From assembly GCA_904420435.1 (NCBI GenBank), contig CAJFVK010000018.1, positions 1 through 40,503 of the forward strand: a DNA stretch of 40,503 nt, written 5' to 3'. Below, one piece after another: positions 29,172 to 36,821 of the stretch (its first letter is position 1; every line of letters starts with the position of its first letter). A program made the position numbers and the translations under genes. This DNA comes from an uncultured Oscillospiraceae bacterium (GTDB lineage Bacteria > Bacillota > Clostridia > Oscillospirales > Oscillospiraceae). Below the pieces are notes generated by a model. The model did no database searches, was not told where the DNA came from, and was given only the letters and a program-made list of their open reading frames with translations.

Positions 29172-32100
29172 ATGGGAAAATTGGTTCAGATCGGGGCTCA
29201 GAAGTCTGTCAGCTCCGAGAAAAAGGACACCCAAAGTAAGGGGCGGCTGGTTCCGATTGGCACGTCGTCAGCAAACAACCCCTTCCGGCGTATGAACAAC
29301 TATGCGGAATCTGCCCTGCAAATGAGCCGGGAATCTCAGCCGGAAACCACCCCCTCCCCTTCCCTGCCGGAAACGGAACCGGTGACGCTGGACACGGGGC
29401 GGGGCGGCGGCTTCGGGACCGGGAACACCGGCGGGGCGGCTCTGAGCCAGACGCCGAGGGCGCGGCTAAATCAGGCGGTCCAGGAGGGGCCGGAGAGCGT
29501 GGGGCGGTTTGTCCTGACGGAGATGGCCCGTCCCTTCGTGGACGAGGTGGGAAACGTCCTTCAGCGGCAGGACGAGCTGAACAGCGCCCCGGCAGCCCTG
29601 GCCGGAACGGTGGTCCGGGGCGCAGACCAAGCGGCGGGGGCCATCACCTCCACCCTGGCCGCCGGCGAGGACCTGCTGCTGGGGGCCCTGGGACAGCCGG
29701 ACGCGGAGGGGCCCCTCCAGGCCCTGAACCGGAGGATGCAGGAGGGGGCGCAGCGCAACGAGGCATACTTCGCCCCGGCCTTTGAGGAGGCGGGCTCCAT
29801 CGGGAACGTGCTGGAAACATTCGGCATCCCCACGGTGGCGGCCATCCCCCAGGCGGCCCTGGCCTTTCTGACCGCCGGGTCCAGCCTGGGCGCCCAGGGC
29901 ACCACGGCGGGGCTCCAGGCGGCCTCCACGGCGGCACAGTCCGGGCTGGGGACCTCCATCCTCAACGGCATCCGCACCATGGCGAGGCAGCCCAACTACT
30001 GGCTGAGCTTTGCCCAGGGGGCGGGCAACGACTACTACGAGGCAAAGGAGCGGGGGGAGAGCGACCTGACGGCCCTTGCCTACTCCACCCTCACGAACCT
30101 GCTGAACTCCGCGGTGGAGGTTGGCGGCGGTATCGACGTCCTCCCCCGGCAGCTCCAGAGCGCGGCCCAGGGGGGAAAGGGCGCGGTCCTGGATTGGGTC
30201 AAGAGCATGTTCGACGAGGGCCGTGAGGAGGTCATCCAGGGGGCCATTACCCAGCTGACAGAGAACGTGGTGCTGGGGGCGGAGAACCCCCTGTACTCGG
30301 GAACGGACCAGAACGCGGTGCTGAACCCCTCCCGGGCGGGACAGGAGTTTCTGGGCGGCGCGGTGGCCGGCGGACTGCTGGGCGCGGGGCAGGCGCTCGT
30401 GAACAGCGCCATCAACCGAAATGGCGGCACCAGATCCAGCGCAGGAGCACAGGAGAGCTCCATTCCCGTGTCCCAGGATACCCGGGCGGAAACGGCCCCA
30501 CAGGCCACGGAAATGCCGATTCTGGACGCGGAGGTCCAGCGGCTCTTTGGGCAGCAAAATGCCGCCCCCAAGACGGAGGCGGCGGACGTCCCTCTTCGGG
30601 AGCGGGTGCGCAGCAGCATTCCTGCCCTCCAGGAAATGAGGCCCGTTTCCGTTTTGGACGGGACGGAAATCCCGCGCGGTGGGAGAATGATCGACCGGCT
30701 GGTTTCCTTTGTCAACTCCATTGGGAACCGGGTGAATCGGCCTGGCTTCGGAGATGTGCTGTTCTCCCGTGGGCGGATCAAAAACAGCATGATCGGTCAT
30801 GGTGTTGGGCAAGCAAAGATCGATACCTTTGCCGCCGTCCCGGACGTCATCCGAAACGGGCAGCAGATTGATTATCAGAAGAATTGGAAGGGCAGGAACT
30901 ATGACACCTATACCTTCGCCGCGCCCATCAATTATAAAGGGCAGGAAACATATTTAGGTGTCATTGTTACAAAAGACAGCGCAAGCAACCGTTACTACCT
31001 CCATGAGGTGGTAGATGCGGACGGGAACATTATTTTCACAAATAATGAATCCCCCGTGTCTACATCAGACGGAACTTCTGCCCTTGCGGGTGACCTCGAT
31101 ACCGTAGCAGACACGGGGGATGGTGCGGGAGATTCTTTGGGCACTGTCGACACCGTAACAGACGGGCGGGCCTCCCAAGAAAATTCCGCGTCGGTTGAGG
31201 GTACGCGTCCCCTCAATTCTGATTCTACTATACCACAGAGGGCGGATTCTGTCAACGACGTGATGGGCCGGGAGGCGGCGCGGCTCTTCGGGTCGGCCCC
31301 CTATGAGGGGGGACGGGTGCCCCAGAGCACCATGACGGAGGGGCAGATCGACCGGCTGGCCCAGGAGTGGGAGCAGGGCACGGCGGGTCTGGACGCCGCC
31401 GGCAACGCCTTCCGGGCGGACCCGGCGGAGCACATCGACCGGCGGACGGCGGAGAGCGTGGGGAGCCGGCAGGTGAACGCCTTTCAGTTTGACTGGCCGG
31501 AGCTCCACAGCTACATGCAGCAGGCGGCCCGGGACCTCCTGACGGACGCGGACGTGTCCCTCCAAATGCCCCAGACCAGAAGGATGGAGCGGACCACGGG
31601 CGGGCGGCGGTACACCCAGAACATCACGGAGTCCCAGCAGCTCCGGTCCGCCATGGACATGGGACTGACCCGTGACCAGATCATCACGGCGGCGGAGCGG
31701 CTGATTGCCGACAGCGGCCAGGAGAACTACGCGGCGGCCAAGCGGCTGGAGCTGGTGCTGGACGACATGCTGACGAACGGCTACCGGACCATCTCCGGGG
31801 AAACCGTGGAACCAAACCAGGACTACATCCGGGCCAAGAACCGGATCGCCGGGGCGGAGCCCAGGGTGGAGGCGGCGGAGGAGCTGCCGCTGGGGGATGT
31901 GCCGGACGGGCGGTTTTACGACAGCCTGGGCAGCGCCCGGGAGGGCTTTACCGGGGCCGGGCTGGAGGGCACGGAACGGGTGAGCCGCCTTGCGGACTCC
32001 CTCCCCTACAACCGCTTTCAGGAGGAGGCGACAGGCCTCTCCAAAGAGGACTATGCCCGGCTTTTCCGCTATGAGAGCCAGACGGAGGGGAGGTCCATGC

Positions 32101-34886
32101 AGCTGGCGGAGGAGCTGCTGTACTACATGCAGGACGGGCAGCGGACGTTCCTGCGGGACATTGACGAGGAGGCCTACCGGTCCCTGGTCCAGTCCCTGGA
32201 CGAGTCCACGGCCTGGAACGCGCCCCAGATGGACGCGGCCCGGATGATCCAGAGCGAGCTCCAGCGGCGGTCCGCCAACCTGGAGATTCCGGAAACGGAG
32301 TACATCGACTTCCTCAAAATGATGCGGGAGCACGAAACCGCAACGGGCCAGGGCGTACAGGCCAACGCCAAGTGGAGCCGGACGGACAACGCCGGCGGCC
32401 AGGCAAGCGAGCTGGAGGCCTGGGAGAACCTGGAGAACTCCGACCTGAGCGAGGCGGAAAAGGCCCAGCGCTTCCAGCAGATCGTCCGGTGGGATACCCA
32501 GATCGAGGGGGTGCCGGACGGGGACACCCAGGCGCTGAAGGACATCATCCTGGAGGTGGCCCAGGAGCGCGGGACCCTCTCCGGCCTGTCCGGGCGGCAG
32601 AGTCGGGCGCTCTACAGCATCGCCAGCAACTCCCTGGACGCGCTGACCTTCGACCAGCTCAAACAGTTTGCCTACGCCTCCACCTCCGCGCTGAGCCAGG
32701 ACAGCGCGCCGGTGAGCATCGGGCGGAAGGTGAAGACCGTCCAGATCCTCAACATGCTCTCCAACCCCAAGACGGCGGCAAAGAACATCCTGGGCAACAC
32801 CACCTTCTACGGACTGGACGCGCTGGCCATGCGGGGGGCGGCGGTGCTGGACGCGGCCCTCTCCAGGATCACCGGCACCAGGAGCGTGGCCGCCGGCGGC
32901 ACCAGCCTCACGGATGCGGTGAAGGCCATGCAGATGGCGATTGCGGAGATCACCATGGACGTGAACATGGACAGCGGGGAGTCCCGCTACGGCACCAGCA
33001 GCCGCAGGACCTTCAAGGCCAGCGGGAACCTGGCGGAGCGGGTCCTATCCATGCTGGAGCGCAACCAGGCCTACCTTCTGAACGCAACGGACGAGTTTTA
33101 CAAGGGGGCGGCCCGGAGCACCCAGGAGCGGACCCAGGCCCTGGTGGACCAGGGAAGAATCCGGACGGACAACCCCAACTACGCCCAGGAGCAGGCGGAG
33201 CAGCTGGCCAGATACCGGACCTTCCAGGACGACAGCACTCTTTCTGGATGGCTTCAGGACATTCACGATATGTTCAACGTAATAGGAGTCGGTGACAGCG
33301 GCAGAACGCGCCCCAACGGGAAAACTATACACGATTTCGGACTCGGAGATATTATAGCACCTTTTACAAGGGTGGCAGGAAACTTAGCCTCCCGTGGGCT
33401 GGAATACTCCCCGGTGAACGCGGTGAAGGGAACGGTGGAGATCGTCCGGGAGATGGCCCGGGCGGCCTCCGGCGGCACGGTGGACCCGTCGGTCCAGGCA
33501 AAGGCGGTTTCCAACACGGCCCGGGGCCTCACGGGGACGGCCATTGCCTACGGCTTTATGCTGCTGGCCCAGGCGGGGCTCCTGCGGCAGGCGGACGACG
33601 AGAACGACGAGAACGTGGCCGCGCTGAACCAGGCGGAGGGGATCACCGGGACCCAGCTGAACCTCTCCGCGGCGGAGCGGTGGCTCTCCGGAGGATCGGC
33701 GGCGTGGCAGAACGGGGATACGCTGATCGACCTGTCCTCCATCGAGCCGCTGAATCTCCTCATGAACCTGGGGACGGAAATGGCGAAAGACGAGCAATCC
33801 CCGATTGTTACGGCCTTTAACGCAACAAGCGATGCCTTTATGGACGCCACGGCGGAGCTTCCTGTGATGCAGTTTATCGGCAATGCCGCCACTAATATCA
33901 TAAGGTACGGTCAGAATCCGCGAGAAGTGTTGCTGCAGGAGGGAGCAAACACCATTGCGTCTTCTCTGATTCCGAATATCTTGCGGTCCACGGCCCGGGG
34001 GCTGGACGACCGGCCGAGGAACACCTACTCCGGGGACACCTTCCTGGACGACGTGGTGGCCAACATTCAGAACAGCATCCCCGGTCTGCGGGAAACCCTG
34101 CCGGGGTCCGTGGACACCTTCGGGGAGGACCGGACCTACCAGGGGGACCTGGGAACGCGGCTTATCAACGCCCTGCTGAATCCGGTGGGGGTGAACACCT
34201 ACACCCAGAGCGAGGTAAGCCGGGAGATGGAGCAGGTCCGGGAGGAAACCGGCGACACCTCCTTCTACCCCACAAAGAGCATCCCGTCGGAGCTGAGCTA
34301 CACGGAAGACGGGGTTACACACAAGGTATCTTTGGACTACGAGCAGCGGCAGGACTTCCAGCGGGAGCGGGGGACCACCTCCTTCCTCACCATGTCCGAC
34401 ATGATGGGGACCTCCGCCTACCGGTCCGCCTCCGCCGAGGAGAAATCCGCCCTGCTGGACCTGTGCGGCGACTACGCCTACCAGGTGGCAAAGGAGAGCG
34501 TTCTGGGGAGCGACGCGGTGCCGGAGTGGGTCGGCAACGCCCAGAACGCCAGGCGGGACCTGGGGATCTCCACGGCGGAGTACCTGGCCTACTACAACAA
34601 GTACAGCGACCGGGGCTTCCTCTCCGGCAGCGGGTACGAGAAGCTGAAGGAGGCGGTGGCAAACGGCCTCACCATCGACGAGTACGCCGCATACCGGGAC
34701 GCCACCGCCGGCCTGAGCGCGGACAAGGACGAGGACGGAAAGACCATCAGCGGCTCCAAGAAGGAGAAGGTCCTGTCGGCCATCGACGGCATGGATCTCT
34801 CCGACGAGGAGAAGGACGGGCTCTACTATCTGAACGGATATGCGGAGAGCGGGATTGACGAGGCCCCGTGGCGGCGGAGGAGGTGA
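29172..34886 (+). CDS. large polyvalent-type phage protein with internal nuclease/toxin-like domain
   Basis: 1904-aa uninterrupted ORF; multi-domain, including VLSNPKTAAKNILGN-type LPP region and PBECR-like segment near 30630-31060. Confidence 0.8.
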   Translation: MGKLVQIGAQKSVSSEKKDTQSKGRLVPIGTSSANNPFRRMNNYAESALQMSRESQPETTPSPSLPETEPVTLDTGRGGGFGTGNTGGAALSQTPRARLNQAVQEGPESVGRFVLTEMARPFVDEVGNVLQRQDELNSAPAALAGTVVRGADQAAGAITSTLAAGEDLLLGALGQPDAEGPLQALNRRMQEGAQRNEAYFAPAFEEAGSIGNVLETFGIPTVAAIPQAALAFLTAGSSLGAQGTTAGLQAASTAAQSGLGTSILNGIRTMARQPNYWLSFAQGAGNDYYEAKERGESDLTALAYSTLTNLLNSAVEVGGGIDVLPRQLQSAAQGGKGAVLDWVKSMFDEGREEVIQGAITQLTENVVLGAENPLYSGTDQNAVLNPSRAGQEFLGGAVAGGLLGAGQALVNSAINRNGGTRSSAGAQESSIPVSQDTRAETAPQATEMPILDAEVQRLFGQQNAAPKTEAADVPLRERVRSSIPALQEMRPVSVLDGTEIPRGGRMIDRLVSFVNSIGNRVNRPGFGDVLFSRGRIKNSMIGHGVGQAKIDTFAAVPDVIRNGQQIDYQKNWKGRNYDTYTFAAPINYKGQETYLGVIVTKDSASNRYYLHEVVDADGNIIFTNNESPVSTSDGTSALAGDLDTVADTGDGAGDSLGTVDTVTDGRASQENSASVEGTRPLNSDSTIPQRADSVNDVMGREAARLFGSAPYEGGRVPQSTMTEGQIDRLAQEWEQGTAGLDAAGNAFRADPAEHIDRRTAESVGSRQVNAFQFDWPELHSYMQQAARDLLTDADVSLQMPQTRRMERTTGGRRYTQNITESQQLRSAMDMGLTRDQIITAAERLIADSGQENYAAAKRLELVLDDMLTNGYRTISGETVEPNQDYIRAKNRIAGAEPRVEAAEELPLGDVPDGRFYDSLGSAREGFTGAGLEGTERVSRLADSLPYNRFQEEATGLSKEDYARLFRYESQTEGRSMQLAEELLYYMQDGQRTFLRDIDEEAYRSLVQSLDESTAWNAPQMDAARMIQSELQRRSANLEIPETEYIDFLKMMREHETATGQGVQANAKWSRTDNAGGQASELEAWENLENSDLSEAEKAQRFQQIVRWDTQIEGVPDGDTQALKDIILEVAQERGTLSGLSGRQSRALYSIASNSLDALTFDQLKQFAYASTSALSQDSAPVSIGRKVKTVQILNMLSNPKTAAKNILGNTTFYGLDALAMRGAAVLDAALSRITGTRSVAAGGTSLTDAVKAMQMAIAEITMDVNMDSGESRYGTSSRRTFKASGNLAERVLSMLERNQAYLLNATDEFYKGAARSTQERTQALVDQGRIRTDNPNYAQEQAEQLARYRTFQDDSTLSGWLQDIHDMFNVIGVGDSGRTRPNGKTIHDFGLGDIIAPFTRVAGNLASRGLEYSPVNAVKGTVEIVREMARAASGGTVDPSVQAKAVSNTARGLTGTAIAYGFMLLAQAGLLRQADDENDENVAALNQAEGITGTQLNLSAAERWLSGGSAAWQNGDTLIDLSSIEPLNLLMNLGTEMAKDEQSPIVTAFNATSDAFMDATAELPVMQFIGNAATNIIRYGQNPREVLLQEGANTIASSLIPNILRSTARGLDDRPRNTYSGDTFLDDVVANIQNSIPGLRETLPGSVDTFGEDRTYQGDLGTRLINALLNPVGVNTYTQSEVSREMEQVREETGDTSFYPTKSIPSELSYTEDGVTHKVSLDYEQRQDFQRERGTTSFLTMSDMMGTSAYRSASAEEKSALLDLCGDYAYQVAKESVLGSDAVPEWVGNAQNARRDLGISTAEYLAYYNKYSDRGFLSGSGYEKLKEAVANGLTIDEYAAYRDATAGLSADKDEDGKTISGSKKEKVLSAIDGMDLSDEEKDGLYYLNGYAESGIDEAPWRRRR

Positions 34887-34951: not shown

Positions 34952-35191
34952 GTGGACGAATTGAAGGAAAACTTCCGGGAGTGGGTCAAGGGCGGGCTGG
35001 ATCTGGTCCGGCCCTGGAAAATCGCCCTGATCGTCACCAACATCTGCTGGGCGGTGGTGCTGGCCCTGTTTATCTGGCTGGCCTACATGTCCCCGGACAC
35101 CAGCTACCAGTACCAGGACTTCGACGAGCACATCCAGACACAGGCGGATGGGGAGTATGACCCGTCCATGGCTCCGTATGTGACGGAGTAA
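34952..35191 (+). CDS. small single-pass membrane protein
   Basis: AAAGGAG then GTG; MDELKENFREWVKGGLDLVRPWKIALIVTNICWAVVLALFIWLAYMSPDTSY. Confidence 0.6.
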   Translation: MDELKENFREWVKGGLDLVRPWKIALIVTNICWAVVLALFIWLAYMSPDTSYQYQDFDEHIQTQADGEYDPSMAPYVTE

Positions 35192-35308: not shown

Positions 35309-35539
35309 TTGCAGGAAAAGACCTTCGCCGTCCGGGCGATGCTGCGGCGCATGGCGCCCTGTAAATCCATCCCCATCATCCAGGCGTATCTCCTGCCGGA
35401 AGAGGAGGAGATGGTGCTGATCGAGCACGAAGCGCGGGGCAAGAGCCTACAGAAGATCGCCCTGGAGCACAACATGTCGATTGAAACCGTCAAGCGCCGG
35501 CGGAGGTCCGCCCTGGAGAAAATCGCAAACAGCATTTGA
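35309..35539 (+). CDS. sigma-70 region 4-like HTH protein
   Basis: MVLIEHEARGKSLQKIALEHNMSIETVKRRRRSALEKIANSI. Confidence 0.6.
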   Translation: MQEKTFAVRAMLRRMAPCKSIPIIQAYLLPEEEEMVLIEHEARGKSLQKIALEHNMSIETVKRRRRSALEKIANSI

Positions 35540-35546
35540 CACTTTT

Positions 35547-35600
35547 TCGGGATAAAAGTGCCCGATGATTGCGGCTTTACCGGCCCTTTCATCGGGCGCT
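35547..35600 (+). promoter_or_regulatory. structured leader with mutually exclusive hairpins (possible attenuator)
   Basis: AAAGTGCCCGATGA...TCATCGGGCGCTTT stem; alternative TCGGG(35547-35551)/CCCGA(35561-35565). Confidence 0.5.
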
Positions 35601-35635
35601 TTCCCGTTATACTAAAGCCATAAGGTGGCCGCCTG

Positions 35636-35649
35636 AAAATCATGATTTT
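35636..35649. promoter_or_regulatory. perfect 14-bp palindrome upstream of RBS, candidate operator
   Basis: AAAATCATGATTTT. Confidence 0.5.
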
Positions 35650-35667
35650 ATGAAGGAGAGAATCACC

Positions 35668-36183
35668 ATGGCTGAATTTGCAAGTAAGGGCGTGGCCGGG
35701 ACCGGCCTGGGCCTGGGCATTGCAGGCACGGCGCTGGGCCTGCTGAACGGGGGTGCCAACGCGCTGCTGGGCGGCGGACTGAGCCGGGTTGCCAACTGCG
35801 GCGGTTGCGCAGGCAGCGACGCCATTGTCAACCGCTATGAAATGAACCTGGTGCAGGAGATCGCCGCCAAGGACGCTCGCATCGGTCTGCTGGAGGCCGA
35901 CAAGTACACTGACCAGAAGATCGTCGAGGTCTACAAAGATCTGGCCGGCCAGATCGGCGCTCTGAACGACAAGATCCAGGCGAACCGGGACGAGCAGAAC
36001 GCCATCAACTGCCAGCAGGCGGTGTACAACGGCACCATGAACTCCACCATCAGCTGCATCCAGGGCCAGATCGCCCAGCTCCAGAGCCTGACCAAGCTGG
36101 TGGTGCCCAACGCCAGCGTGTGCCCGGGCTGGGGCAACGTAACCATCACCCCCGCCGCCAGCACTACTACTCCTACCGCCTGA
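35668..36183 (+). CDS. glycine-zipper/coiled-coil Cys-containing phage protein
   Basis: GAAGGAG RBS; MAEFASKGVAGTGLGLGIAGTALGLLNGGANALLGGG... Confidence 0.75.
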   Translation: MAEFASKGVAGTGLGLGIAGTALGLLNGGANALLGGGLSRVANCGGCAGSDAIVNRYEMNLVQEIAAKDARIGLLEADKYTDQKIVEVYKDLAGQIGALNDKIQANRDEQNAINCQQAVYNGTMNSTISCIQGQIAQLQSLTKLVVPNASVCPGWGNVTITPAASTTTPTA

Positions 36184-36231
36184 AGGGCGGCGGCATTGCT
36201 GGCGGTGAGCCGGAGGACAAGGGCAAGAGCG

Positions 36232-36263
36232 AAAAAGAGGCGGGGGCAGTAAGCTCCCGCCTC
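36232..36263 (-). terminator. putative terminator of the leftward operon
   Basis: GAGGCGGGGGC-agtaa-GCTCCCGCCTC preceded by AAAAA on + strand, i.e. followed by TTTTT on - strand. Confidence 0.55.
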
Positions 36264-36280
36264 CCTCAAAGGAGAATGCT

Positions 36281-36619
36281 ATGGTTACTCTGACGCAGTT
36301 TCAAAACGGCGTGATGCGCTACATCGACAACGACGTGCTGCCCCACCTGACGGGGTTTCGGCGGGTGGGCCTGGGGATCTACGCAGGCCTGGCCGCCAAC
36401 AACGTGGGGGATCTGCTGCTGAAGTACAAGGACCACCCGGCGGTGGAAGTGCTGAACGTGGTGGACAAGGACGGCAGTATCGACGTGGACCGGCTGTACA
36501 GCGTGGCGGCGCCCATGTTCGCCAACGGGGAGCGGTACAGCGTCAACATCCCCATGATCGGGGAGATGACGGTGGACCGGACGGACCTGGAGAAGCTGTA
36601 CCAGTACATCAAAGGATAA
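36281..36619 (+). CDS. conserved-looking 112-aa phage protein
   Basis: AAAGGAG RBS; MVTLTQFQNGVMRYIDNDVLPHLTGFRRVGLGIYAGLAANNVGDLLLKYKDHPAVEVLNVVDKDGSIDVDRLYSVA. Confidence 0.75.
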   Translation: MVTLTQFQNGVMRYIDNDVLPHLTGFRRVGLGIYAGLAANNVGDLLLKYKDHPAVEVLNVVDKDGSIDVDRLYSVAAPMFANGERYSVNIPMIGEMTVDRTDLEKLYQYIKG

Positions 36620-36624
36620 GGGAA

Positions 36625-36657
36625 CCCCGGCCAGGGAGAAACTGGCCGGGGCTTTTT
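36625..36657 (+). terminator. strong intrinsic terminator of the rightward unit
   Basis: CCCCGGCCAG ggagaaa CTGGCCGGGG CTTTTT, perfect 10-bp stem. Confidence 0.92.
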
Positions 36658-36821
36658 CATGCCTTGTACTCCACGTACTTCTTGTGGGGGGAAGAGGTGC
36701 TTTTCCCGGAGCGGACCCTGACGATGCGGACCTCCAGGCCGGCGGCGGCCAGGATGGCGCAGAGGGAGCGGCGGTCCTCCTCTCGGTCGATGGGGACGGG
36801 GATGCGGATGTAGTCAGTCAT
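36657..36821 (-). CDS. 54-aa phage protein
   Basis: MTDYIRIPVPIDREEDRRSLCAILAAAGLEVRIVRVRSGKSTSSPHKKYVEYKA; overlaps the end of the upstream gene; below the ORF-track cutoff. Confidence 0.6.
   Translation of the reverse strand: MTDYIRIPVPIDREEDRRSLCAILAAAGLEVRIVRVRSGKSTSSPHKKYVEYKA

Follow-up and report, generated by a model that had tools for sequence, protein, structure and literature searches.

Gene content of the locus

The stretch of DNA analysed here (the window, 40,503 nt) is a whole contig (40.5 kb) from a metagenome-assembled genome of 2.4 Mb and carries the gene set of a myovirus, including terminase, portal, Clp-type protease, major head protein and tail sheath, as well as baseplate, tail fibres, endolysin and holin. 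On their 3' side the virion and lysis genes are followed by a gene for a 1904-aa protein, two small ORFs (P4 and P5), a compact cassette of three genes (termed here P1, P2 and P3), and then by genes on the opposite strand. The 1904-aa protein (29172-34886) has a sub-threshold match to LPD3 (polyvalent-protein), P4 (79 aa, 34952-35191) contains a single strong predicted membrane helix with a mean hydropathy of 2.46, and P5 (35192-35290) is an arginine-rich ORF of 32 aa, which overlaps the P4 end by 1-2 bases and directly precedes P1. At the other end of the contig, despite its tailed-phage character, the region 2998-3789 matches REP_ORF2-G2P, i.e. a rolling-circle-type replication protein.

All genes of the cassette are encoded on the plus strand. 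P1 (35309-35539, 76 aa), which has a TTG start with GAGGAGG upstream, is a stand-alone helix-turn-helix protein of the sigma-region-4/LuxR type. The sigma-region-4 character ascribed to it by the first-pass annotation of this DNA is confirmed by the Pfam Sigma70_r4 model (28.2 bits, cut-off 24.1). Region-4 models alone match these 76 residues, and sigma-70 region 2 (core and -10 binding) is absent; judged by its sequence, P1 is a region-4 domain only and not a complete sigma factor.

P2 (35668-36183, 171 aa) combines a conserved N-terminus MAEFASKGVAGTGLGLGIAGTALGLLN, Cys residues, a long coiled coil and a C-terminal VCPGWGNVTITP motif; the glycine zipper, Cys residues and coiled coil noted in the first pass are all present. 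The AlphaFold2 model predicts a long helix (residues 56-142), with low confidence (mean pLDDT 58), and the mean hydropathy of the N-terminus (1.52 over 19 residues) is borderline for a membrane helix. The first 22 residues are identical in a homolog (L027) in which the rest of P2 is very different, hence this segment is under strong constraint. P3 (36281-36619, 112 aa) is predicted to be a small protein with a mixed alpha/beta fold (AlphaFold2 model of moderate confidence, pLDDT 79), for which Foldseek finds only uncharacterised metagenomic phage proteins (TM up to 0.91). Both ORFs are well initiated, as originally described, and possess good Shine-Dalgarno sites; between them a hairpin GAGGCGGG...CCCGCCTC (36237-36263, plus strand) lies in the P3 leader (z = -2.73). 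The cassette is closed by a strong intrinsic terminator (36625-36656, plus strand), as had been predicted, with a 10-bp stem comprising 9 G-C pairs and followed by CTTTTT at 36625-36651.

P2 shows no match reaching the curated cut-off in Pfam or NCBIfam, no significant match in PHROGs or PDB, and its query has no relative in plasmids. P3 has no match in Pfam, PHROGs or NCBIfam, and the PDB fold search returned nothing significant. Neither protein is homologous to any known holin, antiholin or exclusion protein. By the criterion of sequence similarity P2 and P3 are new protein families that belong to no described family. Matches of the P3 profile within ORFs of 700-900 aa (L066-L073) correspond to GH2 beta-galactosidase-like proteins and were taken as chance.

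Conservation of the gene order

Loci of the relatives were collected chiefly by similarity to P2, from searches of viral contigs and bacterial genomes, and most of the contigs are metagenomic. The lineages are not fully independent; the baselines given below are shuffles or control genes, and the p values are uncorrected for multiple looks.

Co-occurrence of the three genes had been named as a check, and the survey of neighbourhoods bears it out: wherever the contig extends far enough, P3 nearly always adjoins P2, with the exceptions of L033-L035, in which no P3 was detected, and of L100; in L099 and L101 a P3-like ORF below the profile threshold was recognised by eye. A search of bacterial genomes with P3 only recovers the order P1-P2-P3 in L074 and L075, the P1-like domain of the latter having been recognised by eye only. 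In L075 (187-723) this domain is apparently fused to a hydrophobic, multi-helix N-terminal part.

With P1 as a single query phmmer reported no relatives, and the gene seemed non-conserved, a view overturned by reading the upstream ORFs and by a leave-one-out profile analysis. Most lineages turned out to encode a small helix-turn-helix protein immediately before P2. For 22 loci (the window included), a profile built from P1 of the other lineages was used to rank all ORFs of the held-out locus, and the ORF directly upstream of P2 came first in 20 of the 22, where the upstream ORFs had been picked by eye beforehand and lineages without such an ORF stood outside the test. P1 of the window itself ranks first of 535 window ORFs (E 3.2e-7) with the profile made from other lineages' upstream proteins only. 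No P1 was found upstream of P2 in L017, L024/L026, L027, L028/L029, L030/L031, L095/L096 and L099-L102. This group includes the closest P2 relatives from bacterial genomes, L028 and L029, the former with the most similar P2 (69% identity).

In most lineages P3 is followed by a fourth gene, which either has a ferritin-like appearance or belongs to the DUF7841 family. The ferritin-like variety (E...EExxH...ExEH), present e.g. in L046 (8865-9170), L007 (4853-5158), L020 (5154-5453) and L029 (7970-8275), obtains only a weak MiaE match in Pfam (E 0.024), and the profile of the group detects no such gene in the window. The DUF7841-type gene occurs in L042 (8855-9271; Pfam E 6e-17) and, as recognised by eye, in L002 (1180-1647), L017 (2149-2562) and L095 (4348-4782).

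The region between P1 and P2

The 128-nt leader between P1 and P2 (35540-35667) folds with -46.6 kcal/mol (z = -4.39), and none of 200 shuffled sequences was as stable, in line with the structured leader with hairpins that had been proposed. Its predicted RNA fold includes a long hairpin after P1 (AAAGUGCCCGAUGA...UCAUCGGGCGCUUU, extended by CGGGA/UCCCG; 35548-35606, plus strand), which is a degenerate terminator at a position occupied in relatives by a clear intrinsic one. Of 27 lineages, 15 have such a terminator in the P1-P2 gap (2.3 expected), the window hairpin, with its short T run, being outside this count. Further downstream on the plus strand we find a possible -10 box TATACT (35608-35613), a 14-bp palindrome AAAATCATGATTTT (35636-35649), and the Shine-Dalgarno sequence of P2, AAGGAG (35653-35658). 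The -10-like box and the palindrome are both present as claimed, the former with no recognisable -35, the latter with no counterpart among the leaders of relatives compared with it.

For the P1-P2 gap, a complete promoter with both -35 and -10 elements finds no support, as the consensus scores, including the whole-promoter score, are at the level of shuffles. Among relatives -10 hexamers are mildly enriched 45-72 nt before P2 (p 0.025, uncorrected). The combination of no -35 above chance with a mild -10 enrichment is what would be expected for an activator-dependent promoter, and hints weakly at one. Perfect sigma-70 promoters occur in L024 and L026, which both lack P1, but this contrast is anecdotal, since other lineages without P1 do not have such promoters.

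The P2 leaders have more structure than 250 control leaders from the same loci, with a mean z of -2.28 versus -0.91 (p 4e-6), and the P2 Shine-Dalgarno site is less accessible than in controls (0.34 versus 0.46, p 0.002). Structure is likewise seen in the P3 leaders, for which the mean z is -2.00, but their ribosome-binding sites are not less accessible.

Orientation, neighbours and probable role of the cassette

The neighbours of the cassette vary between lineages. The window carries, in this order, the 1904-aa gene, P4, P5, P1, P2, P3, and a convergent gene for a 54-aa protein (MTDYIRIPVPID...; 36657-36821, minus strand), which lies outside the cassette and marks an inversion. A homolog of the 54-aa gene is found upstream of P1, and on the strand of P1, in L009, L011 and L012. 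In L012 the order is 54-aa gene, P1, P2, P3, fourth gene, and a convergent homolog of the 1904-aa gene; in this locus and in L011 the cassette is thus inverted relative to the window between homologs of both flanking genes, which L009 also carries, arranged as in L012. L046 has kept the orientation of the window beside its 1904-aa homolog. Late-operon read-through, which the first-pass annotation had named as an observation that would speak against a separate unit, therefore cannot be the general rule.

Taken together, we consider it moderately probable that P1, P2 and P3 form an autonomous accessory cassette of gut bacteriophages, in which P1 most likely controls P2-P3, and P2-P3 most likely serve some purpose other than building the particle. 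P1, as a stand-alone sigma-region-4-like DNA-binding protein, would most likely control transcription of the separate downstream P2-P3 unit, and the P2 leader would add a second, RNA-level control. The action of P1 on the P2-P3 promoter can reasonably be inferred from the layout, i.e. regulator, terminator, leader, two genes, terminator. P2, which has an N-terminal glycine zipper and a long coiled coil, most likely acts jointly with the small alpha/beta protein P3, presumably by interacting with it, and their product would probably be associated with the host membrane and have a function distinct from the assembly of particles. Of the regulator-effector system initially envisaged, the autonomous three-gene module is supported by the co-occurrence, the terminators and the inversion, while the regulation of P2-P3 by P1 is deduced from the arrangement.

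Between a part of the virion and an accessory function associated with the envelope, we prefer the latter. That P2 and P3 are accessory virion proteins (internal, ejected or decorating) with their own promoter and regulator seems rather unlikely, although P2-P3 are found near tail or lysis genes in many lineages, and in L017 and L095/L096 a gene resembling a beta-sandwich protein of virion type (as judged by eye) is located between P2 and P3. A glycine-rich N-terminus together with a coiled coil fits ejected or pilot-type proteins, and P2 would suit such a function. On the other hand, L009, L011, L012 and L020 encode the cassette and the 1904-aa late gene on opposite strands, a DnaB-like helicase gene region precedes the cassette in L012, and neither P2 nor P3 matches a structural family in PHROGs.

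About equally unlikely is that P1 merely closes the preceding gene block as a general phage regulator and is an accidental neighbour of P2-P3. Stand-alone sigma-region-4, ArpU (DUF1492) and PBSX Xpf-type proteins are small helix-turn-helix regulators of phage late regions with similarity to region 4, and P1 resembles them in its size, fold and location; some P1 proteins show a weak match to DUF1492, which we take to be the ArpU-type late-regulator family. A terminator often follows P1, and several lineages have P2-P3 without an adjacent P1. Against a mere neighbour, P1 has stayed adjacent to P2 across highly diverse lineages in which the remaining neighbours differ, and P1 has moved together with P2-P3 in the inversion of L012. 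P1 also differs from the ArpU/Xpf type in that it is linked to P2-P3, its putative target, instead of terminase, and is too divergent for simple pairwise search.

Somewhat less likely still, P2-P3 could act in the membrane, either adjusting lysis in the manner of an antiholin or excluding a superinfecting phage. Holin or lysin genes are close by in many lineages (partly as judged by eye), and P2 has the conserved glycine-zipper segment, but its hydropathy is borderline, its model uncertain, and the resemblance does not extend to homology with proteins of these kinds. Lysogenic conversion is weakened, since the P2-P3 pair is rare in bacterial genomes and integrase, with 8 matches across the genome, has none on the window contig.

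The closest known systems are phage morons and accessory loci of prophages (PMC7067206), which like the cassette are compact, bounded by terminators, located at junctions of gene blocks, and independent of neighbouring operons. The cassette has its own closing terminator, and its inversion between homologous flanks, together with the varied neighbours, indicates that it moves or inverts independently of them. Unlike morons (PMC7067206), it possesses its own regulator gene and a structured leader, and is rare in bacterial genomes. Although its protein families are new, the type of arrangement is familiar, probably that of an autonomous accessory phage cassette; our literature search found no description of the P1-P2-P3 module. 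Sequence by itself seldom reveals which phage genes are accessory, and here the same layout recurs across many unrelated gut phages with a regulator that escapes ordinary pairwise search, providing a defined target for studies of gut-phage effects on hosts beyond particle making, and possibly a conserved RNA element with a testable structure.

A candidate RNA element in the P2 leaders

A hairpin with a GGCC loop and at least 6 bp is present in 8 of 38 P2 leaders (0.17 expected), and GGCC is the commonest of the 256 tetraloops; the motif was noticed and then tested on the same sequences, a bias that is lessened, though not eliminated, by ranking it among all tetraloops. Six relatives have the hairpin in its strict form, in which a single base bulges on the 5' side, always 33-45 nt before P2; the position of the bulge varies between leaders, so that an automatic alignment would misplace the stems. 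The window contains a weak member, AGGU-GGCC-GCCU (35623-35634, plus strand), whose four pairs include one U-G and which would not stand out alone. In the leaders of L042, L043, L045 and of L033, L034 other hairpins, with GAAA or AUGG loops, occupy the same place. A comparison of the P2 leaders from the window and from six relatives with Rfam gave no match.

Both the bulged base and the occurrence of G-U pairs are suggestive of an RNA rather than a DNA operator. The coat-protein operator of MS2 is an RNA hairpin with a bulged A just before the ribosome-binding site. The GGCC hairpin, as a candidate operator, is similar in that a short stem carries a bulged base on its 5' side (usually A), followed by upper pairs and a 4-nt loop, just before the ribosome-binding site, and differs in the GGCC loop and in its occurrence in dsDNA phages. 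That the P2 leader is an RNA operator, i.e. a GGCC-loop hairpin with a 5' bulge and stems that change between leaders, and is recognised by a protein of the cassette itself, so that control would combine a dedicated sigma-4-like activator with an RNA switch, appears to us improbable; if true, the cassette would be a three-gene effector system with dual control, for which phage regulation offers no described precedent.

Other RNA elements were found in some cassette-bearing loci: FuFi-1 RNA matches in L018 (5857-6092), L046 (13224-13453) and L021 (15768-16018), the second of which also carries skipping-rope and 6A RNAs. Just upstream of P2 in L005 and L006 a possible leader peptide (MNLIAVLFFIY and MLAAILFFIY, respectively) with its own Shine-Dalgarno sequence is located between the promoter and P2.
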